A stretch of DNA of 64,000 nucleotides from Ilumatobacteraceae bacterium. Its GTDB lineage: Bacteria > Actinomycetota > Acidimicrobiia > Acidimicrobiales > Ilumatobacteraceae. The position numbers and the translations under genes were made by a program. Positions 30,390 to 58,712 of this stretch are shown here, piece after piece. The notes beneath the pieces are model-generated. The model searched no databases and had not been told where the DNA came from. It saw only the letters and a program-made list of their open reading frames with translations. Every line of letters begins with the position of its first letter. Within the stretch, counting starts at the first letter, position 1. The DNA lies in contig JAWPMO010000001.1 of assembly GCA_033344875.1 (NCBI GenBank), positions 2,691,595 to 2,755,594 on the forward strand, in the 5' to 3' direction.

Positions 30390-31256
30390 ATGGCGACGCA
30401 CGATGACCTGCGGGGGTGGATCGCCGAGCAGGTCCGCAGTCGGGTGGCCGGCCCGGACGCAGCCCAGCGTCACGCGGCCTTCGACGCGACGGCGACCGAG
30501 CGGTGGTTCGACGACGACGCCGTGATCCGTCGGGTGCACGCCGACAGCGCGATGTTCGTCGGCGGCCTTCGGGCGCTGCTCCTGCAGTCGCTCCATCCGT
30601 TGGCGATGGCGGGTGTTGCCGACCACAGCGACTACCGCGCCGACCCCTGGGGCAGACTCCAGCGCACCGCGTACTTCCTGGCGGCCACGACGTTCGGTTC
30701 GGCCCAGCAGTCGGAGCAGGCGGTCGCACGGGTCCGATCGGTGCACGAACACGTCGTCGGCGTCGCTCCCGACGGCCGGCCGTATCGCGCGGATGACCCG
30801 CACCTCCTGCGATGGGTGCACGTCGCCGAGGTCGACAGCTTCCTCGCCGCGTACCGCCGTTACGGCAGCGAGCCGCTCACCGACGCGGAGGCCGACGAGT
30901 ACGTGGCGCAGATGGCCGTGATCGCACGCGGGCTCGGGGTGCCGGCGCCGCCCGAGTCGGTGCGCTCGCTCGCCGACCAGCTCCGTTCGTTCCGGAGCGA
31001 GCTGCACGGGACCCGGCAGGCCCGCGACGTCGCCCGCTACCTGCTGTGGCAGCCGCCGATGTCGTTGGCCGCTCGCGCGCCGTACGGGCTCCTGGCGGCG
31101 AGCGCGGTCGGCCTGCTCCCGCGCTGGGCACGTCGACCGCTCGGTCTTCCCTGGTTGCCGCTCGCCGAGGCGGTCGTGGTCCGACCCGCCGGCGACGCCG
31201 TCACCCGGACGCTTCGATGGGCGTTGCAGGCACCGCCCGTCGGAGTTGATCACTGA
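30390..31256 (+). CDS. Oxygenase-MpaB-family protein (DUF2236)
   Basis: This 288-residue protein carries the DUF2236/MpaB' signature: RVHADSAMFVGGLRALLLQSLHPLAMAGV, then DPWGRLQRTAYFLAATTFG and a conserved DPHLLRWVHVAEVDSFLAAY with His and Asp positions thought to bind haem in latex-clearing-like oxygenases. Family roles include rubber oxygenase and fungal mycophenolate-pathway oxygenase; the substrate here is unknown. ATG 30390 is used. Its last 56 bases overlap the convergent YcaQ-like gene. Confidence 0.83.
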   Translation: MATHDDLRGWIAEQVRSRVAGPDAAQRHAAFDATATERWFDDDAVIRRVHADSAMFVGGLRALLLQSLHPLAMAGVADHSDYRADPWGRLQRTAYFLAATTFGSAQQSEQAVARVRSVHEHVVGVAPDGRPYRADDPHLLRWVHVAEVDSFLAAYRRYGSEPLTDAEADEYVAQMAVIARGLGVPAPPESVRSLADQLRSFRSELHGTRQARDVARYLLWQPPMSLAARAPYGLLAASAVGLLPRWARRPLGLPWLPLAEAVVVRPAGDAVTRTLRWALQAPPVGVDH

Positions 31257-32412
31257 GGTCGCCGCGCCGCGCGACCTCGATCCGTTCGAGGCCGAGCCAT
31301 CCGGCCATCAGTGCCAGTTCGGCCGCGACCTCGTCGGCCACGTGAGCGGCCGCGACGCCCGGTTCGGACCACGCGCTCTGCACCAGCAGCGTCCGGTTCG
31401 CCCGATCGGCCTTGAGGTCGACCCGCCCCACGAGCGCATCGCCGAGCAGGACCGGCAGGACGTAGTAGCCGAACTGGCGTTTCGCCGCCGGGACGTAGAT
31501 CTCGATCCGGTAGTGGAAGCCGAAGAGCCGCTCGGCGCGATCGCGGTACCAGACGACCGGGTCGAACGGGCTGAGGAGGGCGCGTGCGTCGATCCGTCGC
31601 GGGAGCTTCGCGTCGGGGTGCAGGTACGCGACTCGGTTCCACCCCTCGACGTCGACGTCGATCAGCCGCCCCTCCTCGACCAACTCGGCGAGCAGCGGGC
31701 GGGTGTGCGCGAGCCGGTGATAGTCGGCCAGGTCACCGGCGGTGCCGACGCCGTGGTACTTCGCCGCGAGCACGAGCATCTCCTTCTTGGCGTCGGCCTC
31801 GTTCGGCGCCGGCGCGTTCAGGATCTCGGCGGGGATCACCCGCTCGGCGACGTCGTACAGCCGGGCGAAGTCGTTCGGGCGCCGGGTGCACGCGACCTCG
31901 CCGGTACGGAACAGGTACTCGAGGGCGAGCTTGCCCTCGTCCCAGTCCCACCACGCCTCCTTCGGGCGCTCGCGGGTCTGGAGGTCGCCGGCCACGATCG
32001 GGCCGTCGGCGCGGACCCGCTCGCGGACCGCTTCGACGAAGTCGGCACGCTCGGCGGCGAACTTGCGGAACCCCTTCCACCTCGGGTGACGTTCCATCGC
32101 CCAGCGATGAAGGGGGTACTGCGCGATCGGCACGTGGCTCGCCTCGTGGACCCAGTACTCGAACAGCTCACCGGCCGCGGTGGCGTCGTCGATCAGCGTG
32201 CGCGGGTGAGGTCCGAGCCGGGCGAAGAGTGGGAGCTCCTGGCTGCGGACCAGCACGTTGACCGAGTCGATCTGGATGAGGCCGATGTGGTCGAGCACCT
32301 TGCGGAGGTGGCGTCGGTCGACACGACCGGTGGGCCGCTGGTGGCCGAACCCCTGCGCCCCGAGCGCGATCCGGCGCGCCTGCGCGTTCGACAACCGTCT
32401 CCGACCACCCAT
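31201..32412 (-). CDS. YcaQ-like (AlkZ/HTH_42) winged-helix DNA glycosylase
   Basis: This 403-residue protein belongs to the HTH_42 family of tandem winged-helix glycosylases that unhook interstrand crosslinks. The catalytic QxD motif of the YcaQ branch is intact in HIGLIQIDSVNVLVRSQ near residue 45; the VHEASHVPIAQYPLHRW and FGYYVLPVLLGDALVGRVD segments are also family marks. It should excise bulky or crosslinked alkylated bases. ATG 32412 is the natural start. The upstream region is occupied by tandem palindromic repeats, which its promoter must share or lie beside. Confidence 0.85.
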   Translation of the reverse strand: MGGRRRLSNAQARRIALGAQGFGHQRPTGRVDRRHLRKVLDHIGLIQIDSVNVLVRSQELPLFARLGPHPRTLIDDATAAGELFEYWVHEASHVPIAQYPLHRWAMERHPRWKGFRKFAAERADFVEAVRERVRADGPIVAGDLQTRERPKEAWWDWDEGKLALEYLFRTGEVACTRRPNDFARLYDVAERVIPAEILNAPAPNEADAKKEMLVLAAKYHGVGTAGDLADYHRLAHTRPLLAELVEEGRLIDVDVEGWNRVAYLHPDAKLPRRIDARALLSPFDPVVWYRDRAERLFGFHYRIEIYVPAAKRQFGYYVLPVLLGDALVGRVDLKADRANRTLLVQSAWSEPGVAAAHVADEVAAELALMAGWLGLERIEVARRGDLSDQLRRAVPATPIEASG

Positions 32413-32488: not shown

Positions 32489-32892
32489 GTGTCGCGAACC
32501 TGCGCACCCGAGCCCCGAAACCGCGACACACCTCACCGCACCCGCTCGGCCTGGCCCGGCCCGGCCACCATGTCGCGAGCCTGCGCACCCGAGCCCCGAA
32601 ACCGCGACACGGTTGGAGGCGCGGACATCCAGCGCGCCGTGTCGCGATCCTGAACCCGACACCCCCAAGTCCGCGACAAAGCCGTGCGAACCGCCGCCGC
32701 ACCGGTCAGTCTGTCGCGCCTTTGGGCGCCGGAGCCCCAAGACCGCGACACGGTTGGAGGCGCGGACATCCAGCGCGCCGTGTCGCGATCCTGAACCCGA
32801 CACCCCCAAGTCCGCGACACAGCCGTGCGAACCGCCGCCGCACCGGTCACTGTGTCGCGTCCTTGGGCGCCCGAGCCCCAAGACCGCGACAC
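32489..32892 (+). repeat. Array of six 41-nt palindrome-ended elements
   Basis: Six elements of exactly 41 nt lie at 32489-32529, 32570-32610, 32639-32679, 32711-32751, 32780-32820 and 32852-32892. Each begins with GTGTCGCG (ATGTCGCG or CTGTCGCG in two) and ends with CGCGACAC (CGCGACAA in one), enclosing a 25-nt core. Starts are 81, 69, 72, 69 and 72 bp apart. Cores differ in sequence; some can extend the stem (CTTGGG with CCCAAG in the sixth). Two further members lie at 56580-56692. They are intergenic and look like a REP-type family. Confidence 0.85.
32611..32892 (+). repeat. Tandem 141-bp repeat (two copies)
   Basis: 32611-32751 and 32752-32892 are consecutive copies of one 141-bp unit, each holding a 28-base spacer, one 41-nt element, a second spacer and another 41-nt element. 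The copies differ at only a handful of positions, so the duplication is recent relative to the divergence among the elements themselves. Confidence 0.85.
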
Positions 32893-32913
32893 GCACCGAC
32901 CGCTGCTGTGGTC

Positions 32914-33282
32914 GGCGAGGCGCAACGCAGCGATCGGGCCATCCGGCCCAGCACGAGTGGGCAAGACAGAAGCCACCAACCGACCCGCGTCGGACGAACC
33001 AAGAATCAGCTTGCTGATTCGGGATCGGATGGTTCGAGCGCAAGGCGCGATGAGCCCGAGTTGCCTCATGGCAACGAGCGGCGAGGCGCAACGCAGCGAT
33101 CGGGCCATCCGGCCCAGCACGAGTGGGCAAGACAGAAGCCACCAACCGACCCGCGTCGGACGAACCAAGAATCAGCTTGCTGATTCGGGATCGGATGGTT
33201 CGAGCACAAGGCGCGATGAGCCCGAGTTGCCTCATGGCAACGAGCGGCGAAGCGCAACGCAGCGATCGGGCCATCCGGCCCG
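32914..33282 (+). repeat. 166-bp tandem repeat, 2.2 copies, with three dyads per unit
   Basis: Copy 1 spans 32914-33079, copy 2 spans 33080-33245, and a partial third runs from 33246 to about 33282, just before the cyclophilin stop codon at 33292. Copies 1 and 2 are nearly identical. Each unit holds three perfect inverted repeats: GGGCC-ATCC-GGCCC (32936-32949 in copy 1), GAATCAGC-TT-GCTGATTC (33003-33020) and GTTGCC-TCAT-GGCAAC (33060-33075). No credible gene uses this sequence. Confidence 0.85.
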
Positions 33283-33291
33283 AATCAGGGA

Positions 33292-33852
33292 TCAGTCGTC
33301 GTGTTGGGTGATGGTGACGGAGTTGATCACCACGTCGGTCTTCGGACGGTCGCCGCCGCCGGTCGGCACGTTCTGCATGGCGTCGAGCACATCGAGCCCC
33401 TTGACGATCTTGCCGAACAGCGAATACTGCGGCGGCAGGCCGGCACCGTTGGGGCCGGAGATCAGGAAGAACTGGCTGCCGTTGGTGTTCGGGCCGGCGT
33501 TGGCCATCGCGACCGAGCCGATCTCGTACTGACCCGGCTTGGGCAGTTCGTCCTCGAAGCGGTAGCCGGGGCCGCCGCGACCGGTACCGGTCGGGTCGCC
33601 ACCCTGGCACACGAAGCCGTTGATGATCCGGTGGATGATCACGTCGTCGTAGTAGTGGTTGAGCGCCAGGAACACGAAGTTGTTGACCGTCTTCGGGGCC
33701 TTGATCGGGTCGAGTGCGATCACCATGTCGCCCATCGACGTACTCATCACGGCGGTGTAGCGCTTGGCGGGGTCGATCCCCATCTCGGGCGGTTCGGAGA
33801 ACTGCTGCTGCTTGGGCGCGGATCCGTCGAAGGGCGGGAAAGCTGAAGCCAT
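33292..33852 (-). CDS. Peptidyl-prolyl cis-trans isomerase (cyclophilin)
   Basis: The 186-residue cyclophilin-type PPIase has TSMGDMVIALDPIKAPKTVNNFVFLA, the catalytic arginine in IIHRIINGFVCQGGDPTGTG, MANAGPNTNGSQFFL and SLFGKIVKGLDVLDAM. It speeds proline isomerisation during folding. There is no signal peptide, so it is cytoplasmic; the N-terminal 40 residues are a flexible Pro/Gln-rich extension. ATG 33852 is supported by a -10 box 7 bases upstream. The 166-bp tandem repeats begin right after its stop. Confidence 0.92.
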   Translation of the reverse strand: MASAFPPFDGSAPKQQQFSEPPEMGIDPAKRYTAVMSTSMGDMVIALDPIKAPKTVNNFVFLALNHYYDDVIIHRIINGFVCQGGDPTGTGRGGPGYRFEDELPKPGQYEIGSVAMANAGPNTNGSQFFLISGPNGAGLPPQYSLFGKIVKGLDVLDAMQNVPTGGGDRPKTDVVINSVTITQHDD

Positions 33853-55649: not shown

Positions 55650-56522
55650 TCAGCCGACGACGTCGGCGACGGCCGCCTGGTACTCGGCGATGCGAGCGAG
55701 GTGACCGTCGACATCGGTCTCGCCGGCGTTGTGCGTGGCGACCGCGATGTGGGTCGCTCCGAGTTCCTTCCACCGCTGCGCATGGTTCTGCCACCGCTCG
55801 GGTGTCTCGCCGCTCCACTGGGCCTGCGGCCGGATCTCGAAGTCGTCCCACGACTTGCCCGTCGCCTCGCGGACCCGGCGCATCTCCGCGATGCGATCGA
55901 CCGACTTCTCGTTCGGGATCCCGAGCGGGAGCCACCCGTCGCCCATCCGGGCGCAGCGATCGAGCACGGCCGGCGCCGATCCGCCGAACAGGATCGGGAT
56001 CGGTTCGGTCGGCCGGGGCAGGATGCTCGCGTGTTCGAAGGAGTGGAACTCGCCTTCGAAGCTGAAGGCGTCCTCGGTCCAGAGGCGCCGCATCAGCTCG
56101 ACCTGCTCCTCCTGCCGCTTGCCGCGATTCTCGAAGTTCTCGTTGAGCGCGTCGTACTCGACGGTGTTCCACCCCACACCGATCCCGAACTTCAGCCGGT
56201 TGCCCGACAGGATCGCCACCTCGGCCGCCTGCTTCGCGGCGAGCACGGTCTGGCGCTGCGGCAGGATCACGATCGCGGTGACGAGACCGACCCGTTCGGT
56301 GCACGCCGCGAGAAACCCGAACAGCACCATCGGCTCGTGGAACGCGGTGTCCGAGTCGTACGGCCCGACGAACCCACCGGGCCGGTTGCGGTCGACCCCG
56401 ACCACGTGGTCGTAGATCATCAGGTGGGTGATGCCGAGTTCCTCCGCTCCCTGCGCAAACGCCTTGATCGCACCCGGGTCATTGCCGATCTCGTTGTGGG
56501 GGATGACCGCACCGATGTCCAT
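55650..56522 (-). CDS. LLM-class F420-dependent oxidoreductase
   Basis: The 290-residue luciferase-like barrel has AEELGITHLMIYDHVVGVD, CTERVGLVTAIVILPQRQTVLAAKQAAEV and SGNRLKFGIGVGWNTVEYDAL, the pattern of actinobacterial F420 enzymes (TIGR03619 type). It is a second family member in the window, unlike the first in sequence. ATG 56522 is natural. The 41-nt repeat pair begins 58 bases upstream of this start. Confidence 0.87.
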   Translation of the reverse strand: MDIGAVIPHNEIGNDPGAIKAFAQGAEELGITHLMIYDHVVGVDRNRPGGFVGPYDSDTAFHEPMVLFGFLAACTERVGLVTAIVILPQRQTVLAAKQAAEVAILSGNRLKFGIGVGWNTVEYDALNENFENRGKRQEEQVELMRRLWTEDAFSFEGEFHSFEHASILPRPTEPIPILFGGSAPAVLDRCARMGDGWLPLGIPNEKSVDRIAEMRRVREATGKSWDDFEIRPQAQWSGETPERWQNHAQRWKELGATHIAVATHNAGETDVDGHLARIAEYQAAVADVVG

Positions 56523-56579: not shown

Positions 56580-56692
56580 GTGTCGCGAACCTGAGCTTCC
56601 CGGGCCCAGGAACGCGACACGCCGCCGGACCACCCGGCACACCCCAGGGCCGTGTCGCGAATCTGCGCGCACCAGCCCCACCGCCGCGACGC
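56580..56692 (+). repeat. Pair of 41-nt palindrome-ended elements
   Basis: Two elements of exactly 41 nt lie at 56580-56620 and 56652-56692, 72 bp apart, the same period as in the 32.5-kb array. The first has perfect arms (GTGTCGCG, CGCGACAC) and a core that extends the stem (CCTG-A-GC with GC-C-CAGG). The second ends CGCGACGC, with one mismatch. They lie between the LLM start and the stop of the DUF2207 gene; the other 100 bases of this gap hold only a GT-rich stretch (56725-56770). Confidence 0.85.
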
Positions 56693-56795: not shown

Positions 56796-58604
56796 TCACC
56801 AGGAGCCGGAGCTGCCGCCGCCACCACCGCCTCCGACGCCACCGCCGCCGCTGTACCCGCCGCCGCCACCACCGCTCGACGACGGTGCGGTCCGGGTGTC
56901 GCGCATCGACGACCCGCGGCTGTGCACGATGATCACCGGTCCGGCGACCGCCCGCGCCCGCTCGGGCACGTTGGCGTTCTCCAGCGCCTTCGACCAGGCC
57001 TCGGCCTCACCGAGCGCGACCGCCCAAGCGCTGTACTCACGAAGGATCCGCTGCGACCACGCCCACTCGACGTGTTTGCCCTCGCTCGCGTGCAGGAACC
57101 GTCGGAACGACTCGGCCCGCAGCGCCAGCGCCGAACCCTGCGCGCTCCGGGCAGGCAGCAGGGCTCGATAGACGAAGTACGCGACGACGGCCGGGAGCAG
57201 CAGACCGAGCGCGAGCGCCGGGAACAGCGACCGGAACGCCCCGAAGAACGCCGACGCCGCCGATCCCGACCAGATCAGCACGAAGATCACGATCATGATC
57301 AGCCCGAACGGCGACCTGCTGCCCTTCGGCCGCAACCCCGAACCGGGCGGCAGGTGCTTCCACCAGCCGCTCGACGCGATGCGTTCCTCCAGCGAGGTGC
57401 GGATCGCGCTCCACGCCGCCGCGAACTGCGGATCGTACGTGCCGGTCGTGTACGGATCGTCGATGTCGAGGATGCCGCTCAGCAACCTCGCGTCGTCCTC
57501 GTCGAGCGACTTGCGGTCGGAGCCGGACCTGATCGAGAGTTCGTCGCCCTCCTCCGAGATCTTGATCGCCTTCTTCGCGACGAGACCGGAGATCCAGGCC
57601 TCGACCGTGTCGTTGCCGACCTGCTCGTCCAGCAGCACCGATGCCTCCCAGGGCTCGATCCCCTTCGGGGGCACGAACTCGATCGTGGCGAGGTCGGCCA
57701 TGTCGTCGTCGGCCACGAGCCGGACCGGCGGCGCGGGGGCGACCGTGCCGTCGAGTCGAGGCGCCGGCAGGTCGCCGTACGCGGCGTCGGCCGCTCCCCC
57801 GGCGAACACCTCGTTGCGACCACGGCGGCGAGCCCGGCGGTACACGGGCACCGCGCCGGCGGTGCCGAGGGCCGCCACCCCGAGCGCCAGCAGCCCGGTG
57901 TTCGGATCGTCCCGACGCTCCGGAATCGCTGGTGCCTCGACGTCGACCGGGTCGGTGCGCTCGACGATGGTCCCGCCGATCGACAGTCCGGCGTCCTGCT
58001 CGAGTGGTTCGATCACGGCGCGATACGTGCCGACGTCGTCGGTCGGCACCAGTTCGCAGCCGCCCGTCGCACCGGCGGACCCGATGTCGCAGAACGTGTC
58101 GTCGAGCACGAAGCCCGTCACGATCACCTCGAAACGACCGGTCTCGTCGTCGCCCGGGAAGGCGCCACCCTTCGGGGCGACGATGTCGAGGTCGAGACCG
58201 AGCAGATCGAACCGGGCGTCGGGCAACGTGTAGGAGAGCTCGTACCGATGCTGCCCCGTGAACGTCGTGTCGGGGTCGCCCACTCGGATGCGCGTCGACC
58301 CCACCAGATCAGCCATACCGACATCGCCGTTGGCGTCGGGAGAACTCGCCTCGACGTCGATCGGCGCGCCGAAATCGTTCGGGATGACCCGCTCGTAGCC
58401 ACGCCGGTCCTCGTTCCCGAAGTCGATGTCGACGAACTCGGTGATCCGCAGCCCGTCGCCGACCGGCGCGACCACCACGGTCTTCGCATCGAACCGCTCG
58501 GGGAACGAGCCGCCGCCGATCACGCCCGTACCCGCCAGCAGCGTGGTGCCACCGATCGTCGCACCGACGATCGTGTGCCGGATCTTGGAGACTCCACCGA
58601 TCAT
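56796..58604 (-). CDS. DUF2207-family membrane protein
   Basis: The 602-residue protein matches DUF2207 (YciQ-like): an N-terminal signal-anchor (about 8-30), an extracytoplasmic beta domain (PERFDAKTVVVAPVGDGLRITEFVDIDFG to about 230), a transmembrane segment near 240-260, a cytoplasmic domain with DDDMADLATIEFVPPKGIEPWEASVLLDEQVGND, two more helices near 450 and 480, and a Gly/Ser-rich tail. It is a membrane protein of unknown role, common in actinobacteria. The start used is 58604, with a CACAAT hexamer 6 bases upstream. Confidence 0.8.
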   Translation of the reverse strand: MIGGVSKIRHTIVGATIGGTTLLAGTGVIGGGSFPERFDAKTVVVAPVGDGLRITEFVDIDFGNEDRRGYERVIPNDFGAPIDVEASSPDANGDVGMADLVGSTRIRVGDPDTTFTGQHRYELSYTLPDARFDLLGLDLDIVAPKGGAFPGDDETGRFEVIVTGFVLDDTFCDIGSAGATGGCELVPTDDVGTYRAVIEPLEQDAGLSIGGTIVERTDPVDVEAPAIPERRDDPNTGLLALGVAALGTAGAVPVYRRARRRGRNEVFAGGAADAAYGDLPAPRLDGTVAPAPPVRLVADDDMADLATIEFVPPKGIEPWEASVLLDEQVGNDTVEAWISGLVAKKAIKISEEGDELSIRSGSDRKSLDEDDARLLSGILDIDDPYTTGTYDPQFAAAWSAIRTSLEERIASSGWWKHLPPGSGLRPKGSRSPFGLIMIVIFVLIWSGSAASAFFGAFRSLFPALALGLLLPAVVAYFVYRALLPARSAQGSALALRAESFRRFLHASEGKHVEWAWSQRILREYSAWAVALGEAEAWSKALENANVPERARAVAGPVIIVHSRGSSMRDTRTAPSSSGGGGGGYSGGGGVGGGGGGGSSGSW

Positions 58605-58712
58605 GCGCCCATTGTGGCCGGTCGGGCACGCCGTCATGGTGGGGTTCTCCCCACCCGCCACACGCCGGGACGCTCCATCGCCCCGATCGGGCCCGTGTCG
58701 CACGCTGGAGGC

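Follow-up and report, generated by a model that had tools for sequence, protein, structure and literature searches.

The DNA analyzed here is a stretch of 64,000 nucleotides (hereafter, the window) that covers positions 2691595-2755594 of the single 4,968,626-bp contig of its source genome, an Ilumatobacteraceae bacterium designated G000. Two arrays of a 41-nt palindromic element are located in it (Table 1). The six elements of the first array have start-to-start spacings of 81, 69, 72, 69, and 72 bp, which agrees with the initial annotation, where six 41-nt units at intervals of 69–81 bp had been described; the second block, with two units of 41 nt each at a distance of 72 bp, was also described correctly. 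The statement that all eight elements have the same arms was exact for four of them (32489, 32780, 32852, and 56580), whereas each of the other four has one arm mismatch. Both blocks had further been placed upstream of minus-strand genes, which is true of the window but did not prove to be a general rule across the loci of the genome. Taken alone, the window is a weak test of the family when three mismatches are allowed, with 10 elements found versus 5.4 expected.

Table 1. Elements of the two 41-mer arrays and their flanking genes, in window coordinates.
Feature	Position	Strand	Remark
AlkZ-like DNA glycosylase gene	31204..32394	-	flanks first array; gene start faces array
41-mer element 1	32489..32529	+	arms exact
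41-mer element 2	32570..32610	+	first base A
41-mer element 3	32639..32679	+	last base A
41-mer element 4	32711..32751	+	first base C
41-mer element 5	32780..32820	+	arms exact
41-mer element 6	32852..32892	+	arms exact
Cyclophilin-type peptidyl-prolyl isomerase (PPIase) gene	33292..33852	-	flanks first array
Luciferase-like monooxygenase gene	55650..56522	-	flanks second array
41-mer element, second array	56580..56620	+	arms exact
41-mer element, second array	56652..56692	+	one arm mismatch
DUF2207 membrane protein gene	56796..58661	-	flanks second array

The best named matches of the AlkZ-like protein came from Ilumatobacter and other Acidimicrobiia. The PPIase gene adjoined the AlkZ gene in seven of eight related loci, and by eye no array lay between them. 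The first array is followed, at 32913-33281, by an unrelated tandem repeat with a 166-bp unit (2.2 copies). Its core, GGCGAGGCGCAACGCAGCGAT, was found with up to two mismatches three times in that interval and once more in 464 kb of G000, as well as once in 400 kb of genome G001 and once in an Acidimicrobiaceae MAG (L033), beside the same PPIase gene. The core of the 166-bp repeat is therefore common to different species, unlike the 41-mers. Upstream of the PPIase gene, two Ilumatobacteraceae MAGs carry long near-perfect palindromes (L036:1764-1825 and L037:3317-3380) with arms of 28–29 bp, 93% complementary, and a 6-nt loop.

A search of the whole G000 genome with the pattern GTGTCGCG-N25-CGCGACAC returned 63 exact matches, and the pattern read backwards, which served as the control, returned none. 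With variants included, the family comprises approximately 108 copies at 24 places, often in 72-bp tandem arrays. The 464 kb that were read closely cover 21 of the 24 loci and contain 99 copies (89 of them distinct) in which the core measures 25 nt and no more than two arm positions are mismatched; five elements with 23–24-nt cores, one of 39 nt, and three unread single copies make up the remainder of the total. When core lengths of 15–39 nt and at most one arm mismatch were allowed, 92 elements in the 464 kb had a core of 25 nt and five a core of 23 or 24 nt, one extra row being an overlap artefact, and a further seven elements had a 25-nt core with two arm mismatches. The earlier observation that element length is held was confirmed by these counts. 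A profile search recovered the same loci plus three single copies at 3821371, 1711792, and 690239; it scored 150 of 11,265 candidates, and weak copies elsewhere in G000 may therefore be missing. The arrays are tandem repeats in which cores and spacers are specific to each array; 28 of the 78 spacings within them equal 72 bp, and by eye the spacers appear unrelated from array to array.

All 21 loci that were read are intergenic with respect to the called genes, and at 20 the nearest gene is no more than 100 bp away. Sixteen hold at least two copies and five a single one. Convergent gene pairs surround 12 loci, tandem pairs eight, and a divergent pair one, and the convergent arrangement is enriched relative to all neighboring pairs (12/21 vs 83/392; odds ratio 5.6, p=2e-4). 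In a scan of 40 of the 41 genes beside the arrays, most proved to be ordinary core genes. Arrays lie on both sides of a gene pair at G000:C1:2909757-2911249, which encodes a 139-aa protein without a Pfam match and an ATP-dependent DNA ligase, as they do around the nuclease gene described below. The 63 exact copies and their intergenic placement bear out the proposal of a dispersed, length-constant, REP-like family of this lineage.

Outside G000 the family was nearly absent. The exact pattern was not found in nine same-genus genomes and occurred as one single copy, in one genome, among 31 further relatives. A profile search of the nine same-genus genomes, with 150 candidates scored per genome, produced only four weak matches in three of them (E 0.003 or worse). 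Two exact elements 15–45 bp apart had no match in a collection of genome contigs, from which G000 itself is possibly absent, and two elements at the same distance with 7-nt arms had none in viral contigs.

The absence of a RAYT-type transposase, already pointed out for the window, extends to the genome: Y1_Tnp (PF01797) had no matches in G000, and the same search was positive in five of 14 control genomes. A candidate enzyme of another type is encoded approximately 209 kb outside the window, on the minus strand at G000:C1:2964352-2965284. The gene lies between two ten-element 41-mer arrays, 25 bp and 72 bp away, which were noticed after a scan of 40 flanking genes. Its 310-aa product combines an AbiEi_4 winged helix, with a score just below the Pfam cut-off, and a DUF559 nuclease domain; it is the single DUF559 match in G000 and the sole full-length homologue among the seven G000 candidates scored. 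In its N-terminal half, the protein is similar to AbiEi models (best PADLOC match, E 7e-27). Compared with the PDB, the protein family matched 3hrl, an endonuclease-like protein (E 9e-8), and 3r3p, a mobile intron protein (E 7e-4) that we take to be a Vsr-like (EDxHD) homing endonuclease; the match to the Vsr structure was not significant (E 0.1). Of the predicted active-site residues, D237 and E248 are retained in 69/69 proteins and H255 in 64/69, and in view of the former two the nuclease is presumably in use; in-frame stops were found in seven of the 69 genes. No AbiEii toxin gene adjoins the G000 gene, whose neighbors encode an ATP/GTP-binding protein and a 5'-3' exonuclease. A search for its relatives in phages gave nothing at 1e-5, and one in plasmids gave 61 records, all below 60% identity; the three inspected were AbiEi-AbiEii pairs.

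In a sample of 297 genomes from the order, 130 carried full-length homologues (E 1e-25 or better). Some genomes have more than one copy of the gene: there were two matches in G001 and at least seven in several genomes, with seven candidates scored per genome. Within the genus, the homologues are flanked by palindromic repeats whose arms, judged by eye, are very different, namely CGACGCAAAGTCG... at the G009 gene, ACCCCGTTCTGTTCAGC... at a second G009 gene, GGACACCCAGGCGATTAAATCNACCAGGCGTCC at the G001 and G005 genes, and GATCTCGGCGG... at the G004 and G005 genes. The pairing was then quantified at 60 loci, the best-scoring listed homologues excluding G000, the G001 gene already seen, and nine that start less than 3 kb from the contig start. 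Exact repeats common to both 450-bp flanks were compared with 386 control placements of the same geometry in the same regions. Shared repeats of at least 14 bp were present at 31/60 loci (controls 10/386), of at least 16 bp at 24/60 (2/386), and of at least 20 bp at 14/60 (0/386), the size threshold having been chosen once a preliminary set of 30 loci, with genes largely the same as those of the 60, had been inspected. The other 29 loci had no repeat of at least 14 bp common to both flanks, which means that the pairing is not universal, is degenerate, or lies beyond the flank test. At the 16 loci inspected, mostly from the top of the list, the shared sequence was mostly a palindrome of approximately 35–60 nt with at least one copy before the gene and at least one just after it. 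Among 69 loci (the 60 sampled and nine of the genus), 37 share at least 14 bp; exact arms of at least 10 bp occurred in nine of these 37 versus 0/135 control windows, and of at least 8 bp in 15 versus 13/135. No flanking repeat was detected at L119, where DUF559 forms the end of a helicase-like protein, by a test that also missed L121, where palindromes are visible by eye. On sequence grounds, the association of the gene with palindromes is well supported.

An alternative reading is that the palindromes are mere autoregulatory operators of the AbiEi-DUF559 gene, and that the dispersed copies form a regulon or act as titrating decoys unrelated to spreading. AbiEi antitoxins repress their own promoter via inverted repeats, according to the available text of PMC7319586, and many loci have palindromes immediately upstream of the gene. 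However, the second copy in the repeat-sharing loci lies just after the gene, where autoregulation does not need it. In G000, moreover, the 12 loci between convergent gene ends and the approximately 100 copies beside unrelated, mostly housekeeping genes do not suit operators, and we regard this reading as unlikely.

All nine gene–palindrome pairs tested had further copies elsewhere in the same genome. The palindrome of G001 occurs in 67 copies (up to two mismatches, gene-side copies included) and that of G005 in 93; neither occurs in G000, and the controls gave 0. The G009 palindrome has 14 copies, four of them beside the gene, and none in G000, G001, or G003. A second G001 family has three copies away from the gene in approximately 400 kb (control 0), and a second G005 family gave, with a permissive cut-off, 81 matches in approximately 200 kb (control 3). 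The scattered four-mismatch matches of the latter are probably due to chance; its clusters in L253, L258, L261, L264, and L265, several of which are 72 bp apart, are not. The element of this family is 50 nt long, and in L264 and L265 its array copies have the 72-bp spacing that is most frequent among the G000 41-mers, despite the other length and sequence. In 200 kb of G255, four further copies of the first family and two of the other, one of these with four mismatches, were detected, and in 200 kb of G236 two further copies, with controls of 0 in each case. In a free-gap search, the first G255 family measured 53 nt in eight of nine rows, in which two places are listed twice and the ninth is likely due to chance, and the G236 elements measured 46 nt in 4/4. 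None of 74 G001 elements lay inside called genes.

The genes of G009 (L122), G001 (L125), and G005 (L126) occupy, by flank reading, the same site with the same downstream gene, and the same upstream gene in the two that could be compared. The G001 and G005 proteins are 81% identical to each other and 56–59% identical to that of G009. G001 and G005 have their palindrome in common, and that of G009 is unrelated, both on the two sides of the gene and genome-wide. Thus, the enzyme and its palindromes seem to change together, a suggestion that comes from this one comparison of G009 with G001 and G005. The palindrome that follows the nuclease gene at L122:1414-1463 reaches back into the last part of the reading frame, so that the element encodes the last residues.

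In two genomes, G000 and G001, the orientation of the elements followed the direction of replication. In G000, with dnaA at 3,246,960 and the terminus taken as opposite dnaA, the elements were on the minus strand at 10/10 loci of one replichore and at 1/14 of the other (p=6e-6). The one deviating locus, at 1038807, has a single copy; at 1711792 the copy has a near-symmetric score, and the locus at 2930516 holds one element of each orientation. The corresponding values in G001 were 8/10 and 0/10 (p=7e-4), with an origin inferred from noisy GC skew only and two loci near the assumed terminus that have opposite-sign skew. Both orientation tables were made by hand, and loci within one cluster are not independent in these tests. 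General replication skew was considered as the source of the polarity and rejected, as array-free intergenes beside the two main clusters average near-zero GC skew. The mean GC skew of array-bearing intergenes in G000 was -0.22 at 2.84–3.00 Mb (10 intergenes) and +0.28 at 3.24–3.34 Mb (four); four smaller array groups showed little skew. IS200/IS605 elements move in a replication-coupled manner on the lagging-strand template, as set out in the accessible sections of PMC6006769, and this precedent, together with the observed polarity, is our reason for considering a replication-fork model.

Occupied sites differ between sister species. Approximately 21 G005 array loci, three known G005 contigs being left out, were compared with G001: 9–10 match a G001 array, two correspond to an orthologous G001 site without an array, and approximately 10 have flanks that are not near any G001 array examined, with the proviso that G001 arrays diverged beyond the reach of the pattern would escape notice. 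At the best empty site, approximately 15 bp in G001 stand where G005 has approximately 220 bp, and neither a target-site duplication nor a clean junction was evident at the readable array-free site. These differences could be losses, not gains.

The polarity would also be expected if the arrays were landing sites of a nucleoid or segregation protein with a fixed orientation around the origin. The distribution in G000 fits such chromosome-organising sites, because 16 of the 24 loci lie no more than 550 kb from dnaA (p=4e-6, for a distance chosen after the map was seen), although weak copies away from dnaA may be missing with 150 of 11,265 profile candidates scored. However, G000 has separate parS-like sites beside dnaA: five copies of the GTTNCACGTGNAAC palindrome, all near dnaA and none inside the 41-mers, lie within 1.1 kb at G000:C1:3251695-3252799, approximately 4 kb from the gene. 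In addition, the analogous G001 family is spread over most of the chromosome, the sequences are species-specific, and sister species differ in the sites occupied. This explanation is therefore quite improbable.

The initial annotation regarded the elements as structure-conserved, with a covarying core pair, and possibly as RNA-processing elements. None of these suggestions held up. Among the 89 distinct copies, Watson–Crick pairing at the proposed inner positions is about as frequent as independent columns predict: pairs 13-29, 14-28, 15-27, 16-26, and 17-25 have counts of 55, 81, 29, 79, and 28 against expectations of 54.6, 81.2, 24.1, 79.0, and 33.5, respectively. Over 47 sequences, pairing amounted to 83.0% versus 83.7% in shuffles, and the covariation score was under the shuffled mean. 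Arm variants are uncompensated; position 1 is A, C, or T in 25/89 copies while position 41 remains C. The near-invariant positions are 3-8, 14, and 16 and their mirror images 26, 28, and 34-39, and positions 15/27 and 17/25 drift without clear covariation. The conserved trait of the 41-mers is thus a dyad-symmetric sequence. Its conserved blocks, approximately 10 bp apart in each half, would be the pattern expected of a protein with two subunits bound to the same face of a DNA duplex; being palindromic, the 41-mers could equally be single-strand hairpins. The palindromic arms and the excess of convergent genes around the G000 loci would suit a structure-conserved RNA or an RNA-processing or terminator element. 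However, no compensatory changes were found in the 89 distinct G000 copies or in 54 distinct copies of the G001 family, and the latter has no clear convergent enrichment (7/22 vs 53/298 pairs). Element orientation is independent of gene direction, and at gathering thresholds Rfam matched only the tRNA and none of the 41-mers, which leaves an RNA element very improbable. Least probable of all is an ordinary minisatellite, with arrays grown by slippage and a coincidental position around the gene: slippage probably acts inside these tandem repeats, whose cores and spacers differ from array to array, but the arms and the 41-nt length are fixed over 21 loci with (by eye) unrelated spacers, gene-flank palindromes recur across the order with different sequences, and both the flank-repeat excess and the dispersal of cognate palindromes in their own genomes speak against it.

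We consider it likely that the 41-mers are the recognition sites of the AbiEi-DUF559 protein of G000 and that sites and gene together form a REP-like replicator system. The family, its symmetry, intergenic placement, gene association, generality, species-specific dispersal, and polarity are read directly from sequence; binding, nicking, and copying are inferred. The protein and the 41-mer very probably constitute a cognate pair. That the protein drives the spread of the elements also seems probable, if less so, and the replication-fork route of spread is put forward tentatively, as somewhat short of an even chance. The site would be double-stranded, with two GTGTCGCG-N4-YGNG half-sites facing each other across 9 bp. 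The winged-helix half would bind the two half-sites jointly, in the way that AbiEi antitoxins recognise inverted repeats, and the Vsr-like nuclease half may nick at or beside the element. If nicking took place during replication, copies of the elements could enter other intergenic sites, oriented according to replication, and be amplified in tandem, whereas the AbiEi-DUF559 gene itself would stay in place, like a RAYT gene.

REP elements are common in bacteria, and RAYTs are the dedicated enzymes that have been described for this class of repeat. A nuclease of another kind that lies between palindromes of its own would point to more than one origin of a REP-like arrangement in bacteria. If true, this would give a role to an AbiEi-like protein type without a toxin partner and provide many natural enzyme–palindrome pairs for testing how repeats are recognised, spread, and kept. 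In a literature search that mostly left subscription journals outside its range, no paper joining AbiEi/DUF559 proteins with palindromic repeats was found.

Several known systems share single features with the one proposed. As in AbiE type IV toxin-antitoxin systems, the N-terminal half is AbiEi-like, and AbiEi proteins bind inverted repeats (of 23 bp, in the available part of PMC7319586); unlike in them, the G000 protein has a C-terminal nuclease half and no adjoining AbiEii toxin gene. The nuclease half is similar to Vsr-like (EDxHD) homing endonucleases and DUF559 nucleases through its matches to 3hrl and 3r3p rather than to Vsr itself. In contrast to homing endonucleases, there is no sign of an intron or intein, and it is the short palindromes that have spread, with the gene remaining at its site, as judged from the one case compared (G009, G001, and G005). 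With regard to MITEs, which have terminal inverted repeats and a target-site duplication, inverted arms are present here, and by eye a duplication was not recognised in the flanks or at the one array-free site. IS200/IS605 elements likewise have palindromes that bracket the gene and copies oriented with replication, but their enzyme is different; in G000, the gene is not multiplied, element length is fixed, and no cleavage motif was identified.

The proposed system is also like that of REP/BIME/REPIN elements and their RAYT (TnpAREP) enzymes, which combine a short high-copy extragenic palindrome family with matching elements that flank an enzyme gene (PMC8049555 and PMC3733652, in the parts available). 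In place of a Y1/HUH transposase, which G000 lacks, the enzyme would be a winged helix joined to a Vsr-like nuclease. The 41-mers have no unpaired GTAG or CGTC tag; by eye, their 5' flanks mostly end in CC, and TGTC lies inside the paired arm. They stand in head-to-tail tandem arrays, and their sequence is kept without pair compensation. The CGTC superfamily of REPs seems to lack a dedicated enzyme, as far as the available portion of PMC3733652 goes. Where RAYT systems have a dedicated single-copy gene flanked by its own repeats, G000 has a single array-flanked gene for another enzyme type, and many other genomes have several copies of that gene. The chances appear about even that these systems are a second, independently evolved REP-like replicator, in which an AbiEi-winged-helix protein with a Vsr-like nuclease recognises, copies, and disperses a genome-specific palindrome, and in which enzyme and palindrome change together so that orthologues in sister species drive unrelated repeat families.
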